Source: a virus. From it: a stretch of DNA of 64,000 bases. The position numbers and the translations under genes were made by a program. Below are positions 40,256 through 43,487 of the stretch, one piece after another. Position 1 is the first letter of the stretch. Every line of letters starts with the position of its first letter. The stretch is taken from the IMG/VR virus record IMGVR_UViG_3300034272_002196, positions 1-64,000 of that record. The stretch is one strand, 5' to 3'. Below the pieces are notes generated by a model, which ran no database searches, was not told the DNA's origin, and saw only the letters and a list, made by a program, of their open reading frames with translations.

Positions 40256-40555
40256 TTAGCCAATGATACCTATTAGATCAGTTTTTTTAGGCAAATAAAT
40301 TTTGTTGCCCACAGTCATATCAAACAAAGGATCTCTGATAGTATTCGGGTTTCGTAGTGCAAACACCCACCATAAGTTAGTATCACCGTACAAATCGTAG
40401 GCCAATAAATCAGGTCTATATTGATATGTTTTGTTAATAGTGAATACTACATCATCTGCATTTCTGGGAATTCTTGGAAAATTTGCAAAATCTAAAAAAT
40501 TTCCATAAAATGGTGTGGTTGCATAAAGACTAGATTTAGAATAGGGCGTAGCCAT
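40256..40555 (-). CDS. gp53: Baseplate wedge protein gp53-like
   Basis: 99 residues against about 196 in T4. The core pattern is retained: KTYQYRPDLLAYDLYGDTNL, WWVFALRNPNTIRDPLFDM and then VGNKIYLPKKTDL, the wedge and LysM-like strand (a G-x-x-I-x-x-P style) by which gp53-type proteins are recognised. It sits between the hub gene (3-nt gap) and the tube-cap-like gene (1-nt overlap). A short gp53 is common outside T4 itself. It would help join wedges into the dome. Confidence 0.75.
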   Translation of the reverse strand: MATPYSKSSLYATTPFYGNFLDFANFPRIPRNADDVVFTINKTYQYRPDLLAYDLYGDTNLWWVFALRNPNTIRDPLFDMTVGNKIYLPKKTDLIGIIG

Positions 40556-41463
40556 TATAGGAATCCTCCTGTAGTTGATGTGCCATTTCTCACTAATGCA
40601 CCTTTGGCAAACTTGTCAAGAGTAAAATTATTGAATATGTTAGATCTACTGTAAATTGGCTGTAACGTTAGATTTACAGTACTAGATGTAGGCAATCTAA
40701 CTGGGCCGCCTAACATATCATTGGTTGGTAATTGAACACCTGATGTGCTTAATGGTGCTCCCACTGGCACTTGAACATAGTCAACCTCTGCTGGCATTGT
40801 GTGAGTGAATTGTGTTACTACACAGGGCACATGCGGAAGGTATGTGGGTCCGTATCCGTCCAAGAAAACAATGGGAGGAGGACTACCTGCATTAGTGTCT
40901 GCACCAAAAAACATTTTAGTCACTGATCGAAAAAACTGAATTACAGCCATTAAATACTGGCCTTCAACCACGTTTTGTACAGTAAATTCTCCAGCAATGC
41001 TTATGCTTGGTACTTCACTGCCGTCATAAAAATAACTATTATAATTACTGTGTGTTAAACTTTGTGGAGTATATCTGGCGCTGTGAGTTATTGTTATAGC
41101 AGGAGTATAAGGAAAAATTACACCCGACGTGCCCAAAACACTGTTTAACGGGGTCATAATAGGATTAGCAGGGTTATCATAAAACAAACTGGCTGCATAT
41201 TTGGCCATGCTCACTCTGACACGCCAGTCGTATTCAGGTCTAATTGCTTGTCCGTCCACCCCCATGAATGTTACATTGTTAAATATAGTACCAGCAAGGT
41301 CCGATAAAAGGCCGTTGGCCCCAGGAGTAAGGCCGGCACCCGCAAGTCTAAGTCCACTGGCATCTGCAGGATTTAACGCACCGCCGGTGTTTTGCCCAGC
41401 AGATAACGAATTTGTCACTGAACCGCCTGATTGGAAACCTGTAGTATTATACGACGCTGGCAT
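40555..41463 (-). CDS. Baseplate tail-tube cap/initiator protein (gp48/gp54-like)
   Basis: 302 residues, near T4 gp54 (320). The first 60 residues are Gly/Ala/Ser-rich. A core follows: DWRVRVSMAKYAASLFYDN, VIFPYTPAITITHSARYTPQ then SLTHSNYNSYFYDGSEVPSI, SIAGEFTVQNVVEGQYLMAV, IQFFRSVTKMFFGADTNAGS and PPPIVFLDGYGPTYLPHVP. This block is characteristic of the baseplate tube-cap proteins of T4-like cyanophages and relatives. It is the first gene of the minus-strand tail operon, behind a late promoter 18 nt upstream. Whether it is gp48 or gp54 cannot be decided by eye. Confidence 0.7.
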   Translation of the reverse strand: MPASYNTTGFQSGGSVTNSLSAGQNTGGALNPADASGLRLAGAGLTPGANGLLSDLAGTIFNNVTFMGVDGQAIRPEYDWRVRVSMAKYAASLFYDNPANPIMTPLNSVLGTSGVIFPYTPAITITHSARYTPQSLTHSNYNSYFYDGSEVPSISIAGEFTVQNVVEGQYLMAVIQFFRSVTKMFFGADTNAGSPPPIVFLDGYGPTYLPHVPCVVTQFTHTMPAEVDYVQVPVGAPLSTSGVQLPTNDMLGGPVRLPTSSTVNLTLQPIYSRSNIFNNFTLDKFAKGALVRNGTSTTGGFL

Positions 41464-41480: not shown

Positions 41481-41488
41481 TATTTATC
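41481..41488 (-). promoter_or_regulatory. T4-like late promoter GATAAATA (start of tail operon)
   Basis: Minus strand GATAAATA 18 nt before the ATG at 41463. It lies in the 108-nt divergent region opposite the plus-strand gp55 promoter. Confidence 0.6.
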
Positions 41489-41518: not shown

Positions 41519-41548
41519 TTGACACATCGATTTAAAACATGTTAGTAT
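41519..41548 (+). promoter_or_regulatory. Sigma70-type promoter for gp55
   Basis: TTGACA at 41519-41524, an 18-nt spacer, then TAGTAT at 41543-41548 (one mismatch to TATAAT). The predicted start near 41555 leaves a leader of under 20 nt before the gp55 start codon. The architecture matches the promoter at 13291-13320. Confidence 0.7.
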
Positions 41549-41559
41549 ACGTTAACCCC

Positions 41560-41565
41560 AAGGAG
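41560..41565 (+). promoter_or_regulatory. Shine-Dalgarno AAGGAG that fixes an AUU start for gp55
   Basis: AAGGAG followed by six bases and then ATT at 41572-41574. An in-frame TAA ends at 41568, so no earlier start is possible. No ATG, GTG or TTG occurs in frame before 41689, although the sequence between is clearly gp55-like. Confidence 0.75.
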
Positions 41566-41571
41566 TAAAAA

Positions 41572-42453
41572 ATTAAACATAATTATCTCAATAATAAGGA
41601 TATCCTTAAAGAAATACATAAAAGCAAAAATACTTATTGTTCATATACAGGACCAGACGTTGCAGACTACGATTTAATTGTAAGCAGTGTGGCTCAAGTC
41701 AATAAGAAAAATATTCTTGCCGCTCGAAAAGCAAGAGCAGAAAGATTGAGTAAATTAGCTCACGAAACTGCTGTAGCCGAAACGGGCGAAAAACAAAAAG
41801 CAGATCAATTTGAAATCAAATATACAAAAATCCCACTGACTGATGTAGTCTTTAGGGTAATGACATGGGAACATATCCCCATCGACAACGTAAAAACTAA
41901 AAAAGCCAAAGATGCTGCTAAAGAATTATTTGATGACGAAGACAATACTGCTTATACAGAATATGACGAAGACGACCCGAAGCATAACAAGTATGTTAAA
42001 GTTAACTTTCCACCATTTTTTCATTACAAAGTTGATGAAGACGGTAACCCTGTATTAGTGGGCAAGAGTCATTGGCGAGGGGATTTAACTGATGGAGTCT
42101 TTAGCAAAGATCACGGATCGATGACTAACAAACTTGCCCATATGTTCATGAAGTTGTGTGAACGGTATGCTACTCGAAGTAACTGGCGTGGTTATACATA
42201 CAATGATGAAATGCGTAGTCAAGCGTTATTACAATTAAGTCAAATTGGTCTACAATTCGATGAATCCAAGAGTCAAAATCCGTTTGCATACTATACCGCT
42301 GCCATCACTAATAGTTTTACTCGTGTTCTTAACATCGAAAAACGAAACCAGAATCTCAGAGATGACATCTTAGAAATGAACAATTTAAATCCTAGTTACA
42401 CACGACAAGGAATGAGTTCTGGTGGAGGCGGCTCTAGCTTTTATGATGAATAA
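41572..42453 (+). CDS. gp55: Late transcription sigma factor gp55, apparent AUU start
   Basis: 293 residues if ATT at 41572 is the start. The N-terminus reads KHNYLNNKDILKEIHKSK, matching the conserved T4 gp55 start (KYNYVNNKELL). Using the GTG at 41689 would remove this region. The sigma core lies near the C-terminus: KLAHMFMKLCERYATRSNWR, GYTYNDEMRSQALLQLSQIG, then FDESKSQNPFAYYTAAITNS with FTRVLNIEKRNQ, equivalent to sigma region 2. Residues about 40-165 are an extra charged segment, making it longer than T4 gp55 (185). The very end, Gly-rich and then SSFYDE, resembles a sliding-clamp-binding tail. It directs polymerase to the TAAATA late promoters. It is followed 17 nt later by gp47. Confidence 0.9.
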   Translation: MKHNYLNNKDILKEIHKSKNTYCSYTGPDVADYDLIVSSVAQVNKKNILAARKARAERLSKLAHETAVAETGEKQKADQFEIKYTKIPLTDVVFRVMTWEHIPIDNVKTKKAKDAAKELFDDEDNTAYTEYDEDDPKHNKYVKVNFPPFFHYKVDEDGNPVLVGKSHWRGDLTDGVFSKDHGSMTNKLAHMFMKLCERYATRSNWRGYTYNDEMRSQALLQLSQIGLQFDESKSQNPFAYYTAAITNSFTRVLNIEKRNQNLRDDILEMNNLNPSYTRQGMSSGGGGSSFYDE

Positions 42454-42470
42454 TGTGTTATACTAGGTAG

Positions 42471-43487
42471 ATGAGTAATTTATTTAAAAAAGCTGCTGTT
42501 TTTACAGATATCCATTTCGGACTTAAGTCTAATAGCCAACTTCATAACGAAGATTGTCTTAACTTTGTTAAATGGGCCACTGCCAAAGCAAAGGAAGAAG
42601 GCTGTGAAACTGCCATGTTCCTAGGTGATTGGCACAATAACCGAGCCAGTCTTAACATCGTTACCCTGAACTATAGCCTTAAAGCGTTGGAGCACTTAAA
42701 TGCCAATTTTGAACGTGTTTATTTTATTCCTGGTAACCATGACCTCTATTATCGAGATAAGAGAGACATACAAAGTGTGGAATGGGCCCGACATCTTCCT
42801 AATGTAGAAATTTGCAATGATTGGTTTAGTAGCGGGGATGTAGTTTTTGCTCCGTGGCTTGTTGGAGATGATCACAAGCGTATTTCTAAATTAAAAGGCA
42901 AATACATGTTTGGACATTTCGAATTGCCCCATTTCTACATGAATGCCATGGTACAGATGCCTGATCACGGTGAAATAAAAAATGAGCACTTTGGAAATTT
43001 CGAACAAGTCTTCACTGGACATTTCCATAAGCGTCAGCAACGGAAGAATATTACATACATCGGAAATTGTTTCCCGCATAATTATGCCGATGCAGGCGAC
43101 GACGAAAGAGGATTAATGATATTAGAATGGGATAAAGAACCTGAATATCATGCTTGGCCTGATCAACCCCGATATCGCGTTTTGGGTCTAGGCGCTATTT
43201 TAAATAATGCAGATGCTGTGCTGGGTACAGGTATGCACGTTCGTGTAAATATCGACATCGACATTAGCTACGAAGAAGCCACTTTCATCAAAGAAACATT
43301 CTTAGAATCTCATAAACTACGAGAGATTACATTAATTCCACAAAAAAATGCAAACTTAAATGAATTTGCTATTCAAGGAAATGTGGAGTTTGAAAGTGTT
43401 GATCAAATTGTCACCAATCAATTGACAGCTATCACCAGCGATCACTACGACAACAATTTATTACTAGACATTTATCGAAATCTATGA
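42471..43487 (+). CDS. gp47: Recombination nuclease subunit gp47 (Mre11/SbcD family)
   Basis: 338 residues, as T4 gp47 (339). Phosphodiesterase motifs in order: D13-I-H15 (FTDIHFG), GDWHNNR with D53 and N56, GNHD at 88-91, GHF at 148-150 and GHFH at 183-186, which hold the two metals. With gp46 it forms the Mre11-Rad50-like complex that resects DNA ends for phage recombination-dependent replication. The ATG follows AGGTAG closely. Its last codons overlap the SDR-like gene (ATGA). Confidence 0.95.
   Translation: MSNLFKKAAVFTDIHFGLKSNSQLHNEDCLNFVKWATAKAKEEGCETAMFLGDWHNNRASLNIVTLNYSLKALEHLNANFERVYFIPGNHDLYYRDKRDIQSVEWARHLPNVEICNDWFSSGDVVFAPWLVGDDHKRISKLKGKYMFGHFELPHFYMNAMVQMPDHGEIKNEHFGNFEQVFTGHFHKRQQRKNITYIGNCFPHNYADAGDDERGLMILEWDKEPEYHAWPDQPRYRVLGLGAILNNADAVLGTGMHVRVNIDIDISYEEATFIKETFLESHKLREITLIPQKNANLNEFAIQGNVEFESVDQIVTNQLTAITSDHYDNNLLLDIYRNL

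Follow-up and report, generated by a model that had tools for sequence, protein, structure and literature searches.

Only a handful of bacterial genes are known to have a conserved AUU or AUC start codon. 30S complexes that form on any codon but AUG, GUG or UUG are destabilised by initiation factor IF3, and the gene infC, which starts with AUU (AUC in Streptomyces), is subject to IF3 autocontrol (PMC5472188). The Streptomyces sigma factor gene sigR starts with GUC (GTC) behind an extended Shine-Dalgarno (SD) sequence, AGGAGGTG, and is repressed by IF3; this repression is essential for its correct behaviour, and changing the start to ATG, GTG or TTG deregulates the regulon (Feeney et al. 2017, PMC5472188). 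In S. aureus, the conserved AUU start of cvfC1 and the AUA starts of ccpN and citZ, each with an extended SD, lower protein yield (PMC13009471), and the AUU start of E. coli pcnB limits translation, as cited in the same paper.

Here, we describe a phage gene for a gp55-like late sigma factor whose start has the same anatomy as those of sigR and infC, i.e. a disfavoured codon, a strong SD and a regulator as the encoded protein. With sigR it further shares that a sigma factor is encoded, that the SD is unusually strong, that gene callers misannotate the non-canonical start and that IF3 sensitivity is predicted. However, sigR encodes a bacterial stress sigma factor with an anti-sigma partner, uses GUC and has demonstrated IF3 repression, whereas gp55 is a phage late sigma factor, uses AUU/AUC and is known from its sequence alone. 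E. coli infC likewise has an AUU initiator discriminated by IF3, but it encodes IF3 and thus closes a loop, which gp55 does not. The AUU start of pcnB belongs to a host poly(A) polymerase and serves no transcription switch. The three S. aureus genes resemble gp55 in combining a conserved non-canonical start with an extended SD, and their reporters yield less than AUG versions; they differ in being bacterial genes with experimentally mapped start sites. Neither an AUU start of gp55 nor any phage example of an AUU/AUC start was found in the open-access literature that we searched. Non-canonical, IF3-sensitive starts as such are already known; their use on a phage late sigma factor, with family-wide conservation, had no counterpart in that literature.

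Start site of the gp55-like gene

The window, i.e. the whole stretch of 64,000 nucleotides that we analysed, comes from an IMG/VR virus record of 65.9 kb. The gene and the elements around its start are:

41572..42453, + strand: gp55-like late sigma factor gene, read from AUU; 293 aa; residues 2-279 match PHROG 12791 (E=2e-77); homologs carry the annotation 'sigma factor for late transcription'
41560..41565, + strand: Shine-Dalgarno sequence AAGGAG, 6 nt before the ATT
41566..41568, + strand: in-frame TAA that closes the frame just upstream of the start, from the sequence of the window and its relatives
41572..41574, + strand: ATT (AUU), almost certainly the start codon; this codon is ATT or ATC in 77 distinct genes
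41689..41691, + strand: GTG, the first in-frame ATG/GTG/TTG, 39 codons into the conserved protein and with no SD; not the start
41539..41541, + strand: upstream in-frame ATG, which reads MLVYVNPKE and then TAA and overlaps the extended -10 box; not the gp55 start

As the PHROG 12791 match spans residues 2-279, the homology of the protein reaches residue 2; a second profile, PHROG 234, matched with E=2e-24. The profile match thus extends across the whole protein, as in T4-type late sigma factors, and the protein shares a family (PHROG 12791, 234) with T4 gp55 and its counterparts in T4-like and jumbo phages. The N-terminal motif of the NYxNNK(D/E)LL type is present in the window and its relatives, in the form N-Y-L-N-N-K-D-I-L at residues 4-12. 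Like other gp55-type sigma factors, the protein is predicted to direct core polymerase to late promoters.

The codon AAA (41569-41571) separates the TAA from the ATT, and the ATT (41572-41574) is followed by KHNYLNNKDILKEI; the residues encoded in frame after the ATT are K-H-N-Y-L-N-N-K-D-I-L. The original prediction had placed an AUU start here from the AAGGAG, the TAA at 41566-41568, the ATT at 41572 and a GTG at 41689 after 39 codons. Its coordinates and arithmetic are correct, and the AUU start itself is strongly backed by the comparative evidence below, namely a conserved ATT/ATC codon, the SD and a coding N-terminus.

Conservation of the start codon among relatives

To compare start codons across related phages, we read the gp55 start regions of close relatives and found ATT at the aligned codon in nine of them (L002, L003, L004, L005, L006, L008, L021, L025 and L040; 65-97% amino acid identity). 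These nine and the window carry an AGGAG-like SD 6-7 nt before the ATT and upstream stops at varying distance, and an upstream conventional codon is usually absent. Searching the entire viral collection for an ATH codon placed two codons ahead of NYLNN gave 101 matching contigs, with 65 different IMG datasets among the 80 matches listed. A base-call error, which the original prediction had wished to see excluded, is thus ruled out, since nine relatives share the ATT and ATT/ATC recurs across at least 65 datasets. Three of the 101 matches, numbered L091, L103 and L111 after deduplication, show a canonical start preceded by an SD of its own; they were left out of the AUU/AUC count. The deduplicated set comprised 77 genes with 68 ATT, 9 ATC and no ATA starts; this and the following counts treat related sequences as separate, a problem that the tree reduces but does not remove. 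Classification of 230 deduplicated gp55 N-termini by a single rule, which demanded an SD of at least 4 whatever the class, gave 116 ATG, 67 ATT, 16 GTG, 10 TTG and 10 ATC starts, where one 'ATC' (L257, offset -15) is a misassignment that we ignored, and L089 (SD GGGGGA) was added as ATT. All 67 ATT starts share the same codon position, and in 54 of them the SD is exactly 7 nt away.

Unlike the start codon, two nearby conserved Ile positions frequently use ATA, and the internal Ile codons of the 77 genes comprise 566 ATT, 344 ATC and 305 ATA (25% ATA). The naive probability of finding no ATA among 77 starts is 2e-10, ignoring relatedness. In the same set, codons 4-39 show a third-position and synonymous excess equal to that of the rest of the gene; this coding-type change indicates that the stretch before the GTG at 41689 is translated. 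Across the relatives, the first conventional codon after the start ranges in position from codon 6 to codon 96 and is thus not the conserved start. Within the clade, the median SD pairing energy is -8.4 kcal/mol for AUU/AUC starts versus -5.6 kcal/mol for canonical ones, so that the SD compensating for the poorer codon is 2.8 kcal/mol stronger. The gp55 start therefore combines the features of the IF3-discriminated class, i.e. a codon other than ATG/GTG/TTG, conservation among relatives and a strong SD. Judging from these comparisons, AUU/AUC is almost certainly the gp55 start codon, and its conservation appears to span a large group of T4-like giant phages. Four isolate relatives that we inspected (PA5oct, Phosso, Atu_ph07 and PHA46) all start gp55 with ATG, unlike the window, and we found no close isolate phage with an AUU gp55; Pseudomonas phage PA5oct shares the gp55-SbcD(gp47) neighbourhood with the window.

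History of the start codon

In trees built without the start region, AUU/AUC starts fall into two groups, with canonical starts between and within them. The large clade includes the window and contains several switches to ATG, GTG or TTG, while the small one (L089, L121, L144, L153 and L159; SH-aLRT 100) sits among canonical-start relatives. Parsimony required 12 changes versus about 46 for shuffled labels. On the parsimonious reading, AUU/AUC was gained at least twice and also reverted to ATG/GTG; a single gain with many losses is an alternative history that is formally admissible. We also looked for relatives with only ATG at the aligned position, the pattern that would have spoken against an AUU start: ATG, GTG and TTG occur, yet AUU/AUC is conserved across diverse members and apparently has at least two origins. 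AUU is not indispensable, since ATG or GTG takes its place in several close relatives (e.g. L064 with ATG beside L182 with ATT, and L012 with GTG).

Use of AUU in the rest of the genome

Three near-full-length relatives were available for a genome-wide view: G001 (338 kb, ATT), G002 (360 kb, ATT, small clade) and G011 (354 kb, GTG). In the window, an ORF scan revealed no ORF besides gp55 that needs a non-canonical start, and in G001 gp55 is the only credible ATT start among about 397 ORFs. We further asked whether protein conservation extends upstream of a gene's first conventional codon; 39 genes of the window and 193, 98 and 205 of the three relatives, respectively, were testable. In this homology test gp55 was conspicuous, with 39 residues in the window, 58 in G001 and 25 in G002; the other matches are short or weak, and gp55 is the sole convincing case in about 535 testable genes. 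Its start is thus nearly unique in the genome. Phage-wide use of AUU was rejected on both scans, the remaining matches being short or weak alignments, ORFs within tRNA arrays and probably non-coding upstream sequence.

Many main ORFs of the window lack a recognisable SD (at least 4 bases) at their first start, and the gp55 SD is among the strongest; initiation in this phage is, judging from its ORFs, often SD-independent. Large tRNA arrays of the relatives carry initiator-like tRNA-Met(CAT) genes with an A1-A72 or C1-A72 mismatch (L306 7650-7725 in G001, L357 4060-4134 in G011). In the array of G002 (L323 4852-5779), two predicted tRNAs have the anticodon CTA and a further one has TTA; all of these would pair with stop codons.

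Promoter, leader and neighbouring genes

The surroundings of gp55 contain the following elements:

41519..41524, + strand: -35 box TTGACA of the sigma70-type promoter of gp55; 62 of the ATH relatives examined have a TTGACA/TATAAT pair with no more than 3 mismatches
41540..41548, + strand: extended -10 box TGTTAGTAT; predicted transcript start at about 41555, with a short leader that contains the SD
41541..41556, + strand: imperfect inverted repeat GTTAGTATACGTTAAC over the -10 box and start site, perfect in several relatives; possible operator, weak and not universal
41481..41488, - strand: late-promoter-like element GATAAATA, 25 nt upstream of a divergent structural gene (40555-41463)
42471..43487, + strand: gp47/SbcD-like gene (PHROG 100) directly downstream of gp55; the extended -10 box TGTTATACT (42456-42464) ends 6 nt before its ATG, which looks leaderless

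An inverted repeat, GTTAGTATRYRCTAAC, overlaps the gp55 -10 box and start site in a subclade, with examples in the window (41541-41556), L004, L096, L113, L119, L132 and L168. A leader hairpin near the SD reached a shuffle p of at most 0.1 in 29% of leaders versus 10% expected, a hint in some subclades; as it is not universal, we kept it out of the explanation. In one subclade (L104, L105, L133, L140, L154, L155 and L110), the gp55 SD is immediately preceded by short hairpins whose sequences differ and which may be 5' protective stems.

A T4-type late sigma factor is expected to go with late promoters of the TATAAATA type before structural genes. As a raw count, the element NATAAATA lies at most 60 nt upstream of 7 ORFs, in five of them at -25 to -29; late-promoter-like elements at this distance are consistent with gp55 acting as a late sigma factor. 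Among the relatives, the gp47/SbcD-like gene has an extended -10 box 6-8 nt before its ATG in 81 of 124 cases and an SD core in 18, and its mRNA thus looks leaderless.

Discussion

The reading that we prefer, at a probability of about 0.68, is that AUU/AUC is a true, selected, inefficient and IF3-discriminated start, which limits gp55 synthesis and couples the late switch to the initiation machinery. A short mRNA from the sigma70-type promoter would bind 30S subunits through its unusually strong SD, AUU would pair poorly with the initiator tRNA, and host IF3 would reject it as it does codons of this type. The output of gp55 would then be low and sensitive to IF3 and initiator tRNA, less late sigma factor would compete for RNA polymerase early in infection, and the late switch would be coupled to the state of the initiation machinery. 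By analogy with sigR, it is plausible that initiation fidelity, through IF3, controls the late switch, and the AUU/AUC start probably keeps this switch translationally throttled; the timing effect, too, is what we infer from the start site. The stronger SD could also restore gp55 output rather than leave it low. In T4, the late switch is also under the control of gp33, gp45 and the modified polymerase, and control by the start codon may therefore be minor. More tentatively, and less likely than not, host IF3 might itself time the late switch: the phage would shift the ratio of IF3 to 30S subunits and initiator tRNA as infection proceeds, which would release AUU/AUC initiation on gp55 and so start late transcription, with the leaderless-looking gp47 responding likewise.

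An unlikely but serious rival holds that AUU is the real start and only fixes a low, unchanging level of a protein required in few copies, with incidental IF3 discrimination and no timing. A constant low set-point without regulation is allowed by the data equally. That relatives swap AUU/AUC with GUG, UUG and AUG fits the tuning of a rate and not one specific regulator, and the AUU start of E. coli pcnB is described, in the citing paper, as translationally limiting. The search of ATT phage records yielded no IF3 gene: PF00707 was absent from 62 phage records, many of them fragments, while positive controls were detected, and an infC-type loop was thus not seen in them. Some jumbo phages have been reported to encode IF3 (PMC7162821, PMC7824862). 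However, a weak SD with AUG would serve a simple set-point equally well, for which a very strong SD with AUU is odd, and the absence of AUA also speaks against it.

Near-neutral drift would mean that any NUG-like or AUN codon is tolerated behind a strong SD and that AUU is simply inherited; the reversions to ATG/GTG inside the clade speak for it. We regard it as improbable, because AUU/AUC is kept in proteins down to 65% identity with that of the window, has at least two origins by parsimony and has no second convincing gene among those testable, because ATA is missing from the 77 starts though common at internal Ile, and because start codon and SD strength covary.

Still less probable is a private initiation channel, in which a phage-encoded unusual initiator tRNA (e.g. 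with anticodon GAU) reads AUU/AUC. The restriction to AUU and AUC matches reading by a GAU anticodon, G001 has a tRNA-Ile(GAT) as well as a Met tRNA with an A1-A72 mismatch, and G002 also has a tRNA-Ile(GAT). However, positions 1 and 72 are paired in all three GAT tRNAs, which look like elongators, G002 lacks any CAT tRNA although it is an AUU relative, the initiator-like C1-A72 tRNA sits in G011 with its GTG start, and no other gene uses such a channel. Initiator-like phage tRNAs, being present in one ATT and one GTG relative and absent from the other ATT relative, thus do not explain the codon.

Finally, a gp55 start elsewhere (by RNA processing, at the GTG 41689 that callers restricted to ATG/GTG/TTG would choose, or at ATG 41539 with readthrough of the TAA) or a sequencing error is scarcely credible, as ATT/ATC recurs in 101 pattern-matching contigs from at least 65 datasets, the GTG has no SD, is not conserved (the first downstream conventional codon being scattered) and would remove conserved coding sequence, and the ATG overlaps the -10 box and is missing from most relatives, which have no upstream conventional codon and whose upstream stop varies in position.

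For annotation, callers limited to ATG/GTG/TTG would predict these sigma factors too short or with the start in the wrong place. For the phages themselves, an AUU/AUC start on the master late regulator, kept in a deep giant-phage family with what appear to be two or more gains, suggests that initiation fidelity serves them as a control point.
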